The position numbers and the translations under genes are program-made. From the NCBI GenBank assembly GCA_021805985.1, contig JAJZDN010000009.1, positions 1 through 64,000 of the forward strand: a stretch of DNA of 64,000 nucleotides. Direction: 5' to 3'. Source of the DNA: Planctomycetota bacterium. Lineage in GTDB: Bacteria > Planctomycetota > Phycisphaerae > WQYP01. Below, piece by piece: positions 10,763 through 16,638 of the stretch. The first letter of the stretch is position 1; the number at the start of each line of letters is the position of its first letter. The notes below the pieces were generated by a model that was given only the letters and a program-made list of their open reading frames with translations, had not been told where the DNA came from and did not search any database.

Positions 10763-11228
10763 AATCTACTTGACCTCAATTCTTGCGAAATTCGCGCCGC
10801 CAAGATCCTGCACATAAAGCGTGCAATCCCCCGGAACGGCAACAAGTCCGCCGGTTTTATGCGATCTCCGGCTGTACTTTAGCCGTAAATAGCGCCGTCA
10901 CACCACATGCGGTGTGATCTGGATCAAGGTTCAAGACACGTTTGAAATGTCAACCTTGCAGACCCACCATAAGGGTGACTGCAGCCGGGTATACCACGGC
11001 AGCGCGAGGTTGTCACCCTCACGCTGCGACATAATTTAGCTCAATAGCATGCATAACGCTACGCACCTGAACAAAACCACCGGCTTCCAGCACGGAAACG
11101 CCAATCGTCCCGAATCTGGAATACAGTATTATAACCCCTTGCGAAAATTACACAAATTGGCCGGTAGCGCGAAAGTGCGCCGAAGCGCGGCAATATTCCC
11201 GCCCCACCCACATCCGTGCCGATAAACC
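10763..11228 (-). other. Non-coding region upstream of nusA with several hairpins
   Basis: I see no gene in this stretch. On the nusA-sense strand there are potential stems: a perfect 7-bp hairpin around 10908-10927 (TCACACC / GGTGTGA with a 6-nt loop), and a two-part stem at about 10927-10960 (CAAGGTT / AACCTTG enclosing GACA / TGTC). CACC / GGTG lies near 10970. They may form a structured 5' leader for nusA, which in other bacteria is often autoregulated, but no known riboswitch was recognised. The outer part (about 11185-11228) grades into a dispersed repeat. Confidence 0.35.
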
Positions 11229-11287
11229 TCACAAAGCCGCCGGCTCTGCCGGTGGTGGAGCGCACCTTGATCGCACCCCGCTGCCGC
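11229..11287 (+). repeat. 59-bp dispersed repeat, copy 1
   Basis: This block is nearly identical to 31058-31116 in the same orientation; I count about five differences. It contains the palindrome GCCGCCGGC-TCT-GCCGGTGG. Weaker similarity extends to the left (CAATATTCCCGCCCC here, CAGTATTTCCGCCCC at the other copy). Shadow reading frames in both places share a peptide only because of this DNA repeat. Each copy lies at the edge of an accessory region. Confidence 0.8.
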
Positions 11288-11361
11288 CGACGAGGAGTTC
11301 GTGTCACGCAGGCGTCCCGCCAGCCACTACGAGGAGTTAGAAGTTAGAAGAGTTTGTAGCG

Positions 11362-11399
11362 CAGGCGTCTCGCCTGCCTCGTGCCGACAGGATGTCGGC
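11362..11399. repeat. Paired palindromes (intergenic hairpin repeat)
   Basis: There are two adjacent perfect hairpins: GCAGGCG-TCT-CGCCTGC (11362-11378) and CCGACA-GGA-TGTCGG (11385-11399). They lie between the nusA leader and the phosphatase-like gene and have no U-tract. They look like a REP-type intergenic element rather than a terminator. The rest of 11288-11558 shows no gene. Confidence 0.5.
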
Positions 11400-11558
11400 G
11401 TTAGTGGCACATCCCGGCGGGCGGGCAAGCCAACAGCCTCCAGAATTTTTAGAGGTGCTTTTCGCGCGGACAACAACTGTCCGCGGCAGGGTGTAGCATG
11501 ACACTTGAACGGTGTGGCCAATGGGGCTGCACGAGGAAACCTTTGAGAAAGGAACGCT

Positions 11559-12005
11559 ATGAAAGTCCATGTTTTCACCCGTAAACAAATCGAAGCCGGC
11601 ATACCGATCAAGCCGGCGTATGTCGTGATTTCAATCCGCAACGCGGGCGAGCCGCTGGCCAAGGTCAAAAAGCAGCCCGGCCTGCAAGATGTCCTGTACC
11701 TGGCATTCAGCGGTATCGACCCGGCCCACGGTGCCCGGCTGGGACGGAAAATTAAGTATTTCACACCTGCCCAGGCCAATAAGATCTGTGCATTCGTCCA
11801 GCGGCACAAAGCCGATGTCGGGGCCTTCGTGGTTCACTGTGAAAAGGGCACGGCCCGCAGTCCGGCGGTAGCCGCGGCAGTCAGCGAAGCGCTGGGAATG
11901 AGCGCGAAGCGATTCTGGAAAACCCACGCACCGAGCCAATACGTATTCAAGGTCTTGTCCGACGCCTTTCAACGAAAGGCCGTGGCGCCACAAAATGGTG
12001 AGTAA
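11559..12005 (+). CDS. Small tyrosine/dual-specificity phosphatase-like protein
   Basis: This 148-aa protein carries the cysteine-phosphatase signature HCEKGTARS at about residues 92-100, fitting HC-x5-R-S. It is preceded by a hydrophobic strand (VGAFVVH) and followed by a helix rich in Ala, as in the P-loop of dual-specificity phosphatases. The general-acid Asp normally found on a preceding loop could be in AFSGIDPAHG (about residue 55), but this is uncertain. A GAAAGGA ribosome binding site precedes the ATG. Similar small phosphatases occur on phages and mobile elements. It lies at the left end of an accessory region and is followed by genes with a defence character; its substrate is unknown. 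Confidence 0.65.
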   Translation: MKVHVFTRKQIEAGIPIKPAYVVISIRNAGEPLAKVKKQPGLQDVLYLAFSGIDPAHGARLGRKIKYFTPAQANKICAFVQRHKADVGAFVVHCEKGTARSPAVAAAVSEALGMSAKRFWKTHAPSQYVFKVLSDAFQRKAVAPQNGE

Positions 12006-12098
12006 AGGTAGGTGAGAGAAGCACGGGTCTTTATACCCAATGGAGTTCGCATGAAATTTGTCGCTACAGGAGCTTTTCCTAAATTTTGAAAGGGTATT

Positions 12099-12440
12099 AT
12101 GAAATCCAAAAGAACCAGCATCGTGGATAAACTGGCCGCCAAATACAAAAAAGAACTAGCCCAGGCCCAGCAGCAGGAGTACAAAAACGACTTGAAACTC
12201 GCCTCTTCCTACGAAACCGATCTGTGGCTGTTTCAAAAATGGGCATATCGCGTCGGCAGGGGCTGGTACGGCTTTTCGCTGGGGAACATTCCCCACGTCT
12301 GGCGATTCATTCTGGACGACTTCCTGAACTGGATCGAAAAACAGCAGCCAGACTTTGAAATTCACCAAGTCAAGATGAAATTTTACCAGTTAAGATTATA
12401 TCTCGGCACCAGAACAGATTTGCTGATCCCCGACAAATAA
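12099..12440 (+). CDS. Hypothetical protein, 113 aa
   Basis: I do not recognise a family. The N-terminal 40 residues are strongly charged and Gln/Lys-rich (probable helix or coiled coil). The rest is aromatic-rich (FQKWAYRVGRGWYGFSLGNIPHVWRFILDDFLNWI) without a transmembrane pattern. The ATG follows GAAAGGGT by four to six bases. It lies between the phosphatase-like gene and the UDG-like gene on the same strand. The stretch 12441-12611 after it holds a GC-rich palindrome (GCCGGCTCCGCCGG) and no gene. Confidence 0.5.
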   Translation: MKSKRTSIVDKLAAKYKKELAQAQQQEYKNDLKLASSYETDLWLFQKWAYRVGRGWYGFSLGNIPHVWRFILDDFLNWIEKQQPDFEIHQVKMKFYQLRLYLGTRTDLLIPDK

Positions 12441-12611
12441 ATCCGCGCCGAGATTTCCAAGCTGCAAGACCTATTGCGCCTGCGCGAATGCACCGAACGG
12501 CGCGTACGGCCGGAGCGGAAAGGGGCCGGAAAAGCGGCACAAAATTGACGCCGGCTCCGCCGGTTGACGGTCGTTGGATGGATAGGTACGGTAACACACC
12601 ACAGTGGTATA

Positions 12612-12670
12612 TGTGGCAATGCACGTTTTCCCCCGCGTGCGTCTGCCCCACAATTTTCGCGGGGAGAGGA
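12612..12670 (+). promoter_or_regulatory. Candidate pseudoknot leader RNA, copy A
   Basis: A 7-pair stem (ATGCACG 12619-12625 with CGTGCGT 12636-12642) closes a 10-nt loop that begins TTTTCCCC. The loop can pair with GGGGAGAG at 12661-12668, which is also the ribosome binding site region of the gene starting at 12679; two of these eight pairs would be G-U. This gives an H-type pseudoknot able to hide the Shine-Dalgarno sequence. A second copy lies at 13474. The structure is inferred by hand from two copies. Confidence 0.45.
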
Positions 12671-12678
12671 CAACGGTA

Positions 12679-13389
12679 ATGGTTAAAAAAGACGAACTCG
12701 AAGCATTGGAGGATCGCGTAAACAGACAATTGGCGGCGAGAGCAAAAGCCGAGGGCATGAAAGACGACCCGATCACAGACGGCGTCGTCAACATTGATGA
12801 GTACATCGCCTGTTCGCCAAGGATGCCCTGGGTACTACGGGAGCCTTGGGAAACCCCCGACACGGATGAAGCTGTCGGGGGATGGAGCCTGACGCAGGAA
12901 TTACTTGCCCAGGGAAGGGTCGCTGATAATAAAGGTGCATTGCCCCCTATTGCGTATGTGACTTATTCGGTGCTAAATTGTTTCCCACCCTGCCAAGACA
13001 TTCCCTATTTAACGGAGAGTCCGGAAGTTCGTGGGGCGCTACGAAAAATTGCTTATATGAATGTGAAAAAATTTCCCAACGTAAAGAAGCCCGGTAATAA
13101 AATAGCGTACGCCCCTGATATCAAAGAGTTTTATTGCAGATATAGGGATATTTTGCTGGATCAGATAGCCACTATTGATCCTCATATCGTAATATTTGGT
13201 GGCACCCGCCCTTTGTTCACCCAAGACCTCGGGCTTACAGACAACTTGCTTTCACGGCGTGGATCTGTGGCCTTTTGCCGTCAAGGCCAGCGATTGTATA
13301 TTGAGGCACACCATCCCGCCCAACGGACGATAACAAAATCGCAATACGTTGATGACATTGCTTCCCTCATAAAGACCGAATGGCACTAA
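12679..13389 (+). CDS. Uracil-DNA-glycosylase-superfamily-like protein
   Basis: The protein has 236 aa from ATG 12679 (GGAGAGGA just upstream); an upstream in-frame start at 12604 would run through the leader hairpin and is less likely. After a charged N-terminal helix, the order of elements recalls the UDG fold: PWVLREPWETPD (motif near the active-site loop), GGWSLTQELL, KIAYMNVKKFPNVKK (strand followed by a turn as in 'INLKK.PG'), DPHIVIFGGT (central strand) and IEAHHPAQR near the C-terminus (the HP-S/A motif). No catalytic assignment is made. It is separated by 153 bp from a GmrSD-like nuclease gene, and both carry the same leader, so they may act together in defence. Fold assignment is by pattern and remains tentative. 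Confidence 0.5.
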   Translation: MVKKDELEALEDRVNRQLAARAKAEGMKDDPITDGVVNIDEYIACSPRMPWVLREPWETPDTDEAVGGWSLTQELLAQGRVADNKGALPPIAYVTYSVLNCFPPCQDIPYLTESPEVRGALRKIAYMNVKKFPNVKKPGNKIAYAPDIKEFYCRYRDILLDQIATIDPHIVIFGGTRPLFTQDLGLTDNLLSRRGSVAFCRQGQRLYIEAHHPAQRTITKSQYVDDIASLIKTEWH

Positions 13390-13473
13390 CACAGGAAACA
13401 ATGAATGGATAGCACATCGATAATTTGCGTTACTTGGACGCATAAATATGATGGTGCCCACATTTAGAAAATC

Positions 13474-13542
13474 TGTGGCAACGCACGTTTTCCCCGCCGT
13501 GCGTTCGGCCGCTTCAGCGAAGCGGGGAAAAGGAGCCAACAC
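13474..13542 (+). promoter_or_regulatory. Candidate pseudoknot leader RNA, copy B
   Basis: 28 of the first 31 bases match copy A at 12612. Stem 1 is ACGCACG (13481-13487) with CGTGCGT (13498-13504). Its 10-nt loop TTTTCCCCGC (13488-13497) is perfectly complementary to GCGGGGAAAA (13522-13531), which is followed directly by GGAG and the GTG start at 13543. A competing local hairpin, CCGCTTC (13509-13515) with GAAGCGG (13519-13525), would free part of the loop, so the leader could switch between two forms. Confidence 0.5.
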
Positions 13543-15456
13543 GTGAACATCCCAGCAGAAAAGCCGTCGACCTTTGGGTCAATCTTTTTCCCCGAGGGCC
13601 GCACCATCTCCGTTCGGGTGCCGGATTACCAGCGAGCCTATTCTTGGGATTGGAAGCAGATCGAGTTGTTCATTGGGGACCTCATAAAATATCAAGGCTC
13701 CGGCAAAGGGTATTATTTCGGCCATTTCATCGCAGAGAAGGTCGGTGGGGACACCGAAGAGCGGTGGGAAATCGTGGATGGCCAGCAACGCATCACCACG
13801 TTCGTGCTGTTCTTGATGGCCTGTCGTTCCCTCTCCCCGTCAGGCCATTCCGCCTATTCCATGATCCAGCGGTTCTCGACGGTGAGCTACGATGCTAAAT
13901 CGCTTGAAAGCATGGGCGACGGCAGCCGCATGAGCAACTTTTTGGACGCTAACAAAAACTTCGGCCCCAAAAACCCGCCCTCGGACAAGGATGTCATCGA
14001 GGGCTTGGGGTTGTCGGAAGATGAGTTCACCAGTTCCCAGAGGAGGATGGCATTCGCCTTACTTCACTTTCGCCACGCGTTTCTGGATGGCAAGCTGAAG
14101 GAGAGCGAAATCGAGGGCTATATCGGCGTGATTATGAATGCCCACTGCTCCCGTGACCTTGCCCCGGACAAGTCGGTTGCGGTCAATATCTTCGAAATGC
14201 ACAATACCCGCGGCGTTCCGCTCACGACCGTGGAAATCATAAAGGCCACGCTCATGAAATACGTCTATGATCACCCCGGCGGCGATTCCGATTCGGAGGT
14301 GAAGAAAATTCAGACCGAATTCGGCGAGATCTACCGGATGGAAGAGCGCCTAGCCGCGGGCAGTTTCCGCGGGGAAATAACGATGGACCAACTCCTCCGC
14401 CTGCACCTTCGCGTCGTTGACGATGGGACGAAGAAGAAAGCATCTGAATTTGATTCCCCGGCCCTCAACGCCAACGCCGACGCGCTCGTCGCGTACGTTG
14501 ACGGAAAGCTCGGGGAATTGGGCCCGGCTGGCGGCGTCAAGTACGCCCGCGATTTAGCAAGGGAATTCAAGAAGTCCGTGCGGATCGTCAGCGAAACCCT
14601 GCCCGGGTGGGATAAGAAAGACCCGCTGGTGGGAGACGTTATGATTCTGGACCGGGATCCAAGCTGCCAGTTTTTCCTGATCATCTGCCGCCGCCTAGAG
14701 GAGGCAGCCGACCAAGCCAACGGCCGCCTGGGCAGCGGCTCGCTTCTGCTCTGGGAGAGACTACTTTTTACTCGTGACTTTCACGATGAGTACCACGGGC
14801 TCTGGTACAGGGATAACTTTCCGGCTTTGTATGAGAGTTGTGGGCTGAACGAGGCGCAGATCGCCGAAACCCTCAGGTGCTATTTGGAGAACGGGTTCCG
14901 TCCGGAGCGGACCAAGGGACTTCAGTCGATCGTGGCCGCGTTTTTGGAGAAGAACAAGGAACGCGTCCTAAATGGCGCCTTTGACTGGCGCGGGCCCAAG
15001 ATGACCTATACGATCTACAAATACGAGGTCAGCAACCGCGCCAATATCCGTGACGTCATGAAGGGCTATTCAATGGAACATATCTTGCCCCAGGAGTGGA
15101 AATGGGAGTGGGTCGAGGCCGAGGATGTGCCCCCGAAAAAATTGTCGAAAGCTGAGCAGGAAGGCGTTCAGCGGAAGATTGGCTCTTACATCAACGGTAT
15201 CGGAAATCTGTTACTGCTGACGCCGGGTGAGAATGCGTCCCAGGGCAACCGGCACCCTGCGACCAAGGATTATGGGAACAAAAAAGGAGGGTCCTACGAA
15301 GAGCACGGCGAGAATCGGGAAAAGTGGAGGTCGTCGGCGAACTGGGAAAACCTTATCCAGGAACGTGGTAATAAAATATACGATTTCATGCTTAAATATT
15401 TCCTCGACGCACCGGCAAGTTCCAGCGGGGCCGAAGCTGGGGACGGGAATGCTTGA
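13543..15456 (+). CDS. GmrSD-type DUF262/DUF1524 protein (type IV restriction-like)
   Basis: This 637-aa protein has the architecture of GmrSD-family nucleases. An N-terminal DUF262 (ParB/Srx-like NTPase) domain shows VPDYQRAYSWDWKQIELFIGDL, YFGHFI and IVDGQQRITTFVLFL at about residues 24-95. A C-terminal DUF1524 HNH-type domain shows MEHILPQEW (about 505-513), then NGIGNLLLLTPGEN. GmrSD cuts DNA with glucosylated hydroxymethylcytosine; SspE uses the same architecture and senses phosphorothioate. Which modification is recognised here cannot be told. The start is GTG with AGGAG eight bases upstream. The gene has higher GC than the housekeeping genes and sits alone with the UDG-like gene, consistent with a horizontally acquired defence cassette. 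Confidence 0.85.
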   Translation: MNIPAEKPSTFGSIFFPEGRTISVRVPDYQRAYSWDWKQIELFIGDLIKYQGSGKGYYFGHFIAEKVGGDTEERWEIVDGQQRITTFVLFLMACRSLSPSGHSAYSMIQRFSTVSYDAKSLESMGDGSRMSNFLDANKNFGPKNPPSDKDVIEGLGLSEDEFTSSQRRMAFALLHFRHAFLDGKLKESEIEGYIGVIMNAHCSRDLAPDKSVAVNIFEMHNTRGVPLTTVEIIKATLMKYVYDHPGGDSDSEVKKIQTEFGEIYRMEERLAAGSFRGEITMDQLLRLHLRVVDDGTKKKASEFDSPALNANADALVAYVDGKLGELGPAGGVKYARDLAREFKKSVRIVSETLPGWDKKDPLVGDVMILDRDPSCQFFLIICRRLEEAADQANGRLGSGSLLLWERLLFTRDFHDEYHGLWYRDNFPALYESCGLNEAQIAETLRCYLENGFRPERTKGLQSIVAAFLEKNKERVLNGAFDWRGPKMTYTIYKYEVSNRANIRDVMKGYSMEHILPQEWKWEWVEAEDVPPKKLSKAEQEGVQRKIGSYINGIGNLLLLTPGENASQGNRHPATKDYGNKKGGSYEEHGENREKWRSSANWENLIQERGNKIYDFMLKYFLDAPASSSGAEAGDGNA

Positions 15457-15643
15457 ACACGGCATTGAATCCGGGTCATTAGTGCCGGGGCACAACCGCC
15501 CAATTTGCGCAAATGAATCCGAACTCCTCGCTCGGTGGCGGCTGGAATAATCCTCTCCGCGCCCGTGTGTTGAGTGCTTGCTGCGTGGACAAGAAATGCC
15601 TGCGGCGCGGGCTGTCGTGGCGGCACGAACACCTCGACCACGA

Positions 15644-15778
15644 TTACGCCGAACATCCGCGCTGGCTGGGCCGCAAGTCAACGAGGCCTTTCACGCTGGC
15701 GAAATTGACCACCGCAAGCGCTTCGCGGGCGTGGGCGAGCATTTGCCGTGCGCAAACTAATGGATCATGCCGCGACAT
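15644..15778 (-). pseudogene. Truncated HEPN (HepT/DUF86) toxin remnant
   Basis: Reading from ATG 15778, the 44-codon frame begins MSRHDPLVCARQMLAHAREAL, which matches the N-terminal helix of HepT-type HEPN ribonucleases. It then departs into unrelated sequence and stops at 15644. HepT proteins are about 110 aa long and carry the catalytic RX4-6H motif near the C-terminus; that part is missing. The start overlaps the end of the MNT gene by 14 bp, the usual MntA-HepT operon arrangement. So the toxin half of a HEPN/MNT pair has been lost by deletion or insertion at about 15700. The stretch 15457-15643 contains no other recognisable gene. Confidence 0.65.
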
Positions 15779-16064
15779 AGATCGGCTCCGCTTCGTCCAG
15801 CACGTTCTGGCGGAAATAGGGGCTTAGGTCTGCGGCGGTATTCAGGTCTACCCGCCGTCCGAGGATGGTTGACAGTTGGTCCTGCATGGCGAAGAAGGCC
15901 AGCCCCGGCTGATGCCCAGGCTCGAATTCCACCAGCACATCCACATCGCTTGCAGCAGTGAAGTCAGGCCGTAGAACGGACCCGAAGAAGGCGAGGCGGC
16001 GGATATGGCTCCGGCGGCAGAATGCTGCAATTTCGCTTGTCGGTATGTTGAGTCCAGCAACCAT
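15765..16064 (-). CDS. MNT-domain nucleotidyltransferase (MntA-like antitoxin)
   Basis: This 99-aa minimal nucleotidyltransferase has the signature FFGSVLRPDFTAASDVDVLVEFEP, i.e. GS-x10-D-x-D, at about residues 30-50. MntA proteins inactivate the partner HEPN toxin by adding AMP groups to a tyrosine near its active site (known for the MntA/HepT pair). I chose ATG 16064; the longer frame upstream reads through a DNA repeat and is spurious. The partner gene directly downstream is truncated, so this antitoxin appears to be an orphan. Confidence 0.8.
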   Translation of the reverse strand: MVAGLNIPTSEIAAFCRRSHIRRLAFFGSVLRPDFTAASDVDVLVEFEPGHQPGLAFFAMQDQLSTILGRRVDLNTAADLSPYFRQNVLDEAEPIYVAA

Positions 16065-16163
16065 GGCACGCACCTGTTTTTTACTGCGAACAAATATAAC
16101 CGCGCACCACATGTTGGCCAAGCAGGCAATCGACAAGCAGTCGGCAGACCCGGGTTCCGGTTT

Positions 16164-16525
16164 GAGTGACCGCCGGGTTGCGACGGCGTGATTTTCGGCG
16201 TCGCCCGGCCGCATCGTGTGATAGAGCACCGTCGTGATAAGCCGGTGGTTGGTTGGCGGCATCGGATCGACCACCGGATTACCATCCGGTGCTATCGGGG
16301 CGCGGCGCGTCATGGAGCGTCGTGGTGGTAACCCGGTGGTTGGTTGGCGGCATTGGATCAACCACCGGATTACCATCCGGTGCTATCGGGGCGCGTCGCG
16401 TGATAGGCCGCCGCGGTGGTAACCCGGTGGTTGCTTGGCGGCATTGGATCAACCACCGGATTGCCATCCGGTGCTATCGGGGTGCATCGTGTGATAGAGC
16501 ACCGTGGTGATAACCTGGTGGTTGG
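16164..16525. repeat. 91-bp tandem repeat array, member of a dispersed repeat family
   Basis: Units begin with the CCGGTGGTTGGTTGGCGG motif at 16242, 16333 and 16424 and, degenerate, at 16514, giving a period of 91, 91 and 90 bp. Each unit holds a 10-bp inverted repeat (CCGGTGGTTG ... CAACCACCGG) and an 8-bp hairpin (CACCGGAT-TACC-ATCCGGTG). The left flank (16164-16241) matches 20724-20801 and, inverted, part of 56.66-56.82 kb. The array lies between the MNT gene and the PAP2 gene. No protein is encoded: 91 is not a multiple of three, and the frames drift. Confidence 0.85.
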
Positions 16526-16638
16526 TCATTGACATCCGACGCCATCCGCGCCATCATCCGGGCTGGAGCGTCAGCGTGGCTGGTGCGCCGGATGCCTGTC
16601 CGTGTAATGGACCGGGCGTCGTATTTAAGAGGTTATTA

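Follow-up and report, generated by a model that had tools for sequence, protein, structure and literature searches.

The preQ1-I, preQ1-II and SAM-II riboswitches are short H-type pseudoknots in which the second helix ends at or overlaps the Shine-Dalgarno sequence. The RNAs of type III toxin-antitoxin systems (ToxI, CptI and TenpI) are pseudoknot RNAs located directly upstream of a defense-type gene, arranged as tandem repeats with a terminator and a ToxN-like endoribonuclease gene behind them. The leader that we describe here has features of both. Like the riboswitches, it would form a short H-type pseudoknot at the Shine-Dalgarno sequence; however, its stem 1 is longer, it precedes nuclease genes rather than genes for metabolic enzymes, and it has no match in Rfam. 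Like the type III RNAs, it is a putative pseudoknot RNA just before a defense-type gene, but it is single, with no tandem repeats, and the genes behind it are unrelated to each other and do not belong to those endoribonuclease families. A scan of the window (the whole 64-kb stretch of DNA analyzed here) found no terminator-like site between leader and gene on the + strand. In contrast to REP/RAYT-type repeats, which are present in high copy number, in both orientations and mostly away from 5' UTRs, the leader occurs 0-4 times per genome and in one orientation relative to the gene. An integron attC site is marked by R'/R'' boxes and comes with an integron integrase; the leader lies 5' of genes and includes a promoter and a Shine-Dalgarno sequence. 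The WYL-domain regulators BrxR and CapW act on DNA at the promoters of defense islands (PMC9122589, PMC9122601, PMC9122588). The leader would share with them the control of diverse defense genes, and a WYL gene is found in several leader islands, whereas the element itself is an RNA leader. Comparative genomics has identified candidate structured RNA motifs upstream of genes by conservation and covariation (PMC2864571), and the leader was found likewise.

Based on our results, we conclude that the leader is a real RNA family, apparently undescribed and limited, as far as we have searched, to one family of Planctomycetota. A literature search found no motif tied to restriction genes of Planctomycetota, and there may be a description elsewhere. 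Our main reading, to which we assign a probability of about 60%, is that these cis-acting RNA leaders form a new family and control the translation of a defense-gene regulon by means of a pseudoknot that occludes the Shine-Dalgarno sequence.

The window contains two copies, A and B, each in front of a different gene and at the positions reported in a preliminary description of this DNA. The features are listed below in window coordinates; the bit scores given are partly by construction, as A and B belong to both of our covariance models, R1 and R2.

11163..16524, no strand assigned: inserted island of 5.4 kb that holds the two leaders with their genes and is missing in four congeners
11559..12005, + strand: small DUSP-like phosphatase gene (weak Pfam match; homologues in many leader loci)
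12564..12592, + strand: candidate promoter of copy A, weak (TTGACG-17-TACGGT), from alignment to the promoters of other copies
12611..12672, + strand: leader RNA, copy A (model R2, 56.8 bits)
12613..12616, + strand: 5' strand GTGG of the outer stem of copy A, partner CCAC at 12648-12651 (sequence; family permutation p ~0.004)
12619..12642, + strand: stem 1 and loop of copy A, 12619-12625 with 12636-12642, loop 12626-12635 TTTTCCCCCG (sequence; family covariation)
12658..12668, + strand: predicted pseudoknot 3' strand of copy A, overlapping the Shine-Dalgarno region (duplex with its own loop, -13.0 kcal/mol)
12679..13389, + strand: open reading frame of 236 aa that follows copy A (UDG-like, from motif reading only)
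13424..13452, + strand: candidate promoter of copy B (TTTGCG-17-TATGAT), aligned with the TATAAT-bearing promoters of L047, L048, L049 and L053
13473..13535, + strand: leader RNA, copy B (model R2, 67.7 bits)
13475..13478, + strand: 5' strand GTGG of the outer stem of copy B, partner CCGC at 13509-13512 (sequence; family permutation test)
13481..13504, + strand: stem 1 and loop of copy B, 13481-13487 with 13498-13504, loop 13488-13497 TTTTCCCCGC (sequence; family covariation)
13522..13531, + strand: predicted pseudoknot 3' strand of copy B, GCGGGGAAAA (duplex with its own loop, -17.2 kcal/mol)
13532..13535, + strand: Shine-Dalgarno sequence GGAG of the GmrSD gene, 7 nt before its GTG start (sequence)
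13543..15456, + strand: GmrSD-type (type IV restriction) gene after copy B, 637 aa (Pfam GmrSD_N 4.2e-30, GmrSD_C 2.8e-10)

A direct-repeat search aligned 12609-12642 with 13471-13504 (88% match over 34 nt), and the window has exactly two occurrences of the 21-nt core GTGGCAANGCACGTTTTCCCC, compared to 0.01 expected from shuffles. Each copy has the 7-pair stem 1 and the 10-nt loop beginning with TTTTCCCC that had been reported, and each loop is complementary to a strand at or directly before the Shine-Dalgarno sequence (GGGGAGAG at 12661-12668 in A; GCGGGGAAAA at 13522-13531 in B). As had also been noticed, differences between the copies preserve pairing: stem 1 has T-G in one copy and C-G in the other, and stem 2 likewise has U-A and U-G. 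No 3' strand from another copy pairs better with the loop of A than does its own, and in B the Shine-Dalgarno GGAG is flush with the pseudoknot helix. The hairpin at 13509-13525 that was proposed to compete in copy B does exist, but it has no counterpart in the other copies and thus provides no family-wide switch. The preliminary description had named a simple recent duplication as the finding that would count against it. We looked for such a duplication and saw none: A and B are only 54% identical over 110 nt that include the promoter, and each is closer to copies elsewhere (for B, L044 at 66%; for A, L044, L045 and L046 at 57%), which rules out a recent local origin of one from the other.

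The covariance-model search that had been proposed uncovered many further copies upstream of diverse defense-type genes, with compensatory changes in stem 1. Searching 28 genomes of the order with the 21-nt core, two mismatches allowed, yielded two new sites (L007 and L008) in other genera of the same family, and the reversed pattern, used as a control, yielded none. The whole arrangement, including the GGGGAA strand, is present at both sites, and L008 has one more copy. Model R1, built from four sequences (A, B and the two relatives found by pattern), produced 19 further matches in the same genomes (E 2e-13 to 0.1). Model R2 was built from 21 copies and gave 23 matches, all with E <=7e-7 (the next best in those genomes had E 0.026); most of the 23 were used to train R2, and the independent evidence is therefore the R1 search. 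In total, the 23 leader matches, all on the sense strand, are in 11 of the 28 genomes, of one Planctomycetota family, although two of them (G014:C18 and C95) have the same sequence, lie at the ends of contigs and may represent a single locus. There are 0-4 strong matches per genome, and 1-4 in each genome that has the leader.

Outside this family, covariance and pattern searches gave nothing convincing in 397 genomes of the class, 392 genomes of the phylum and viral contigs, using a first-look filter and stricter settings that weak copies can escape. In a pattern scan of genome contigs, the genuine matches were all in metagenome bins of Planctomycetota. The earlier suggestion of a mobile or selected control element for defense-type genes is supported, but the element is confined to one planctomycete family and is not widespread. 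Rfam gave no match at curated thresholds across the whole window, nor when the leaders of seven related loci were searched with E values up to 1 allowed.

Several candidates were rejected. In the window's own genome, two pattern matches (C4 and C57) are inside coding genes and a third (C190) lacks the rest of the element. Matches in viral contigs look like coding sequence without the element, and a stricter pattern gave none. Matches in the class (L074-L078; E 2.5e-4 to 5e-3) are GC-rich hairpins, most of which match the model incompletely and lack a convincing second strand. Pattern matches outside the planctomycetes (L094-L097 and L099-L101) were discarded on the same grounds. Two leader copies (L059 207-271 and L103 5124-5186) are degenerate: they have kept the upstream block and are followed by very short reading frames.

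Evidence for RNA structure is strongest in stem 1. In an alignment of 21 copies made with MAFFT without regard to structure, seven of the nine pairs of stem 1 are changed on both sides, with 22 double-changed cells compared to 9.4 in shuffles, and none of 500 shuffles reaches the covariation score. Stem 1 is paired in 83.6% of cells, compared to 14-52% when it is slid by 1-3 columns, and RNAalifold recovers the same stem unprompted. Examples of swaps are CG in place of GC at columns 11-31 (L052a, L052b and L059) and GC in place of AU at columns 8-34 and 9-33. Self-complementarity in 15 non-redundant copies, judged by permutation, is significant for both stem 1 (p<5e-5) and the outer GTGG/CCAC stem (p 0.004).

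Stem 1 is also an inverted repeat of 7-9 bp, and such a repeat could function as DNA, either as an operator or as a recombination site for the swapping of cargo genes. The island is an insertion, tandem leader-cargo units exist, and the comparison of G-U with A-C in the stems does not discriminate the RNA strand and so is not decisive for RNA. However, the half-sites change together (TGC/GCA versus CCC/GGG) and no single operator sequence is kept, pairing of the loop with the Shine-Dalgarno strand would be needless in an operator, and the 3' end of the cargo showed no second site. The element is found in one orientation, always between promoter and start codon, and in only 1-4 copies per leader-bearing genome. 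We therefore regard a DNA-level element as distinctly improbable.

The pairing of the loop with the downstream strand, which would complete an H-type pseudoknot, is supported by conservation and by permutation (p ~0.01), more weakly than stem 1. Without any fixed register, duplex energies are better when a loop is paired with the 3' strand of the same copy than with permuted partners (p 0.011; 15 non-redundant copies). In the alignment, helix 2 is paired in 79% of cells, a level that shuffles equal; there are 5 double-changed pairs versus 2.6 in shuffles (14/500) and 13 pair types versus 10.3 (20/500). Helix 2 covaries little because the loop hardly varies. The first U of the loop is paired in 9 of the 21 copies and the following bases are paired in most, which would suit a pseudoknot whose first loop is short and whose helix 2 has 6-7 pairs. 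In 17 of the 21 copies, stem 1 has a greater predicted stability than helix 2 by itself, and folding energies are unexceptional (z 0.4 to -1.3), as computed by minimum-free-energy folding, which takes no account of pseudoknots.

This architecture raises the question of a true riboswitch, in which the pseudoknot would serve as an aptamer and its small-molecule ligand (perhaps a nucleotide altered during phage infection) would close or open the Shine-Dalgarno sequence. An H-type pseudoknot overlapping the Shine-Dalgarno sequence is the design of several small riboswitches (preQ1, SAM-II), and the presence of one leader on unrelated genes would fit a regulon that follows a signal. Conserved unpaired positions are few, however: by column entropy they are two or three U's in loop 1 and a loosely kept AUCAUUUUU in loop 3. 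In addition, the cargo offers no metabolic clue, and leaders within a genome are often more alike than those that precede the same cargo; a constant ligand would not call for this. We consider a small-molecule aptamer unlikely.

The surroundings of the leader are those of a 5' untranslated region. All copies are on the sense strand between a promoter-like block and a start codon, and in most intact copies the annotated start is 0-16 nt past the matched core. The block, TTGAC..TTGGATGCG..TATAATGATGCC, is present upstream of most copies and is sigma-70-like by comparison, with about 14-23 nt from the end of the -10 box to the stem. It is clearest in L044, L046-L050 and L053 and poor in A, L056 and L058. 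A strict promoter scan of the window called neither A nor B, and the claim of a promoter is thus one of comparison among copies. Similarity between copies fades upstream of the -35 region and ends at the start codon. In most copies the Shine-Dalgarno sequence adjoins or overlaps helix 2; in L045 and L050 it is not flush with it.

Another explanation is that the stretch encodes a leader peptide (NTG-GAA-ATG-CAC-GTT-TTC...) and is kept for its coding or for translational coupling. Its first codon is GTG, TTG or ATG in 20 of 21 copies, the frame is mostly open, and the stop codon of the frame in B overlaps the GTG at which the gene starts. Variation is not in excess at third positions, however (entropy 0.84, 0.98 and 0.91 at positions 1-3), indels of 1 nt break the frame in several copies, the relation of the frame to that of the gene varies among copies, and there is no consistent Shine-Dalgarno sequence ahead of it. 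A conserved peptide is very hard to reconcile with this pattern, and we find it the least credible of the explanations considered.

The 20 intact genes behind leaders are not related to one another, and most are restriction-type or repair-type genes. In addition to the GmrSD gene of the window, Pfam identifies Mrr_cat in L043b and L046 (L049 is 80% identical to L046, and L048 is a sub-threshold Mrr), PDDEXK_4 in L045 and L050, and an AAA_5 McrB-like protein followed by McrC in L056. In three islands the first leader gene encodes a DnaJ-type zinc finger of 49-53 aa (L043 6085-6246, L047 4086-4235 and L052 7681-7830). The next large gene is GmrSD or PDDEXK_4 in L047 and L052, and the zinc finger of L043 is followed by a second leader, this one with an Mrr gene. 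One of the zinc fingers has a weak, below-cutoff match to the anti-TRAP protein RtpA (E 4e-4). The gene after copy A was labeled UDG-like in the preliminary description; this label comes from motif reading, and Pfam, NCBIfam and PDB sequences gave no match. A leader gene in a congener (L051b) does match the Pfam UDG superfamily, and BLASTP between the two was non-significant. An AlphaFold model of the gene after copy A, made without an alignment, was discarded (pLDDT 36). Library matches were likewise absent for its counterparts in L044 and L051a, the GIY-YIG-like genes of L052b and L059, and the L053/L055 family, and the labels of these genes are motif readings or were left blank. Three leader matches have no intact cargo (L103, the second L059 site and L054).

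Many of the leaders are located in islands with a shared organization. Nine loci have one order: a WYL regulator (where the contig reaches it), a double AAA+ ATPase that resembles IetA (partial in L053), a DnaQ-like exonuclease, and one or two leader-cargo units, with a DUSP-like and/or GxxExxY gene between ATPase and exonuclease in most. The island AAA+ gene is present in 10 of 11 leader genomes and in 3 of 17 others (Fisher p 0.0003, an optimistic value since the genomes are related). The order WYL, IetA-like AAA+, DUSP/GxxExxY and DnaQ-like recurs in L043 (394-5746), L045, L047, L048, L051, L052, L056, L059, L106 and L108, and is possibly an undescribed defense system. In four sister genomes, nusA adjoins a PAP2 phosphatase gene at the position where the window has 11163-16524. 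No recombinase was identified among the main genes of this insertion. At its right edge (16210-16526) there are 3.5 tandem copies of a 91-bp unit with an internal inverted repeat. Elsewhere in the window's genome, the WYL gene (G000:C70:6564-7505) has one in-frame TAA, and there are two near-identical conjugation-type clusters (L003 and L004, in G000:C4 and C57), TraG/VirD4-like and VirB11-like by reading.

The leader is not obligatory in these islands, as a UDG homologue in L108 and a GmrSD gene in L106 occupy the island position without one. Leader similarity often tracks the genome rather than the cargo. For example, the leaders of L048 and L049, in one genome, are 85% identical and their cargo about 24%, whereas the leaders of L049 and L046 are 64% identical and their cargo 80%. 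The leaders of L047 and L053 (73%), in one genus, have unrelated cargo. Exceptions occur, for example the 78% identity of the L044 and L046 leaders across genera. The leader thus does not simply travel with one gene; plausible explanations are local co-adaptation and conversion.

Similarity by genome is what local co-adaptation predicts if the leader is the site for a protein or antisense RNA encoded in the island (the 53-aa DnaJ-type zinc finger, the WYL protein or another) that represses or activates the set. This proposal is a version of our main reading with the trigger named. WYL and AAA+ genes co-occur, and in three islands a leader precedes the zinc finger gene itself. However, zinc fingers are found in some islands only, known WYL proteins of defense islands act on DNA, and shared descent or gene conversion could also produce similarity within a genome. 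We consider such a factor possible, if still doubtful. As a trigger, a local island-encoded factor is slightly favored over a metabolite or the general state of the cell because leaders are similar within genomes.

In our reading, each copy is a unit of ~110-120 bp. Its elements would be a short 5' end, a hairpin, a loop and a Shine-Dalgarno strand, usually with a sigma-70-like promoter of its own. The hairpin would have up to 9 pairs (7 in A and B) and a 4-pair outer stem, and its loop, UUUUCCCC, would pair with CGGGGAAA, which overlaps the Shine-Dalgarno sequence or lies just before it. The resulting H-type pseudoknot would have a loop 1 of ~2 U, a helix 2 of 6-7 pairs and a loop 3 of ~10-16 nt, and the G-rich strand that pairs with the loop (GGGGAAAA) would be protected in it. 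Since helix 2 adjoins or overlaps the Shine-Dalgarno sequence in most copies, the folded leader should hinder 30S binding, and most likely it would bar the 30S subunit from that sequence and keep translation of a dangerous nuclease-type gene low. A common signal or trans-acting factor would open the leader and permit translation. We infer both the translational repression and that the leader is subject to regulation at all. Because unrelated genes of one genome carry the leader, they would form a restriction-type regulon in mobile defense islands.

We speculate, more tentatively, that the leader is an RNA sensor (a riboswitch or bound by a factor) that responds to infection and coordinately de-represses modification-dependent nucleases and glycosylases in mobile defense islands. 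This bolder idea is more doubtful than not, and if true, it would be the first dedicated class of RNA leaders for anti-phage genes. The leader is a small RNA, and its trigger is open to testing in vitro. How restriction-type genes are regulated is a long-standing question, as such enzymes can kill their host. The shared regulators of defense islands described so far are mainly DNA-binding proteins, for example those of the WYL type (PMC9122601). A portable promoter and RNA leader on unrelated nucleases would add a layer of RNA to this control, and the leader would serve as a sequence tag for new defense genes in these genomes.
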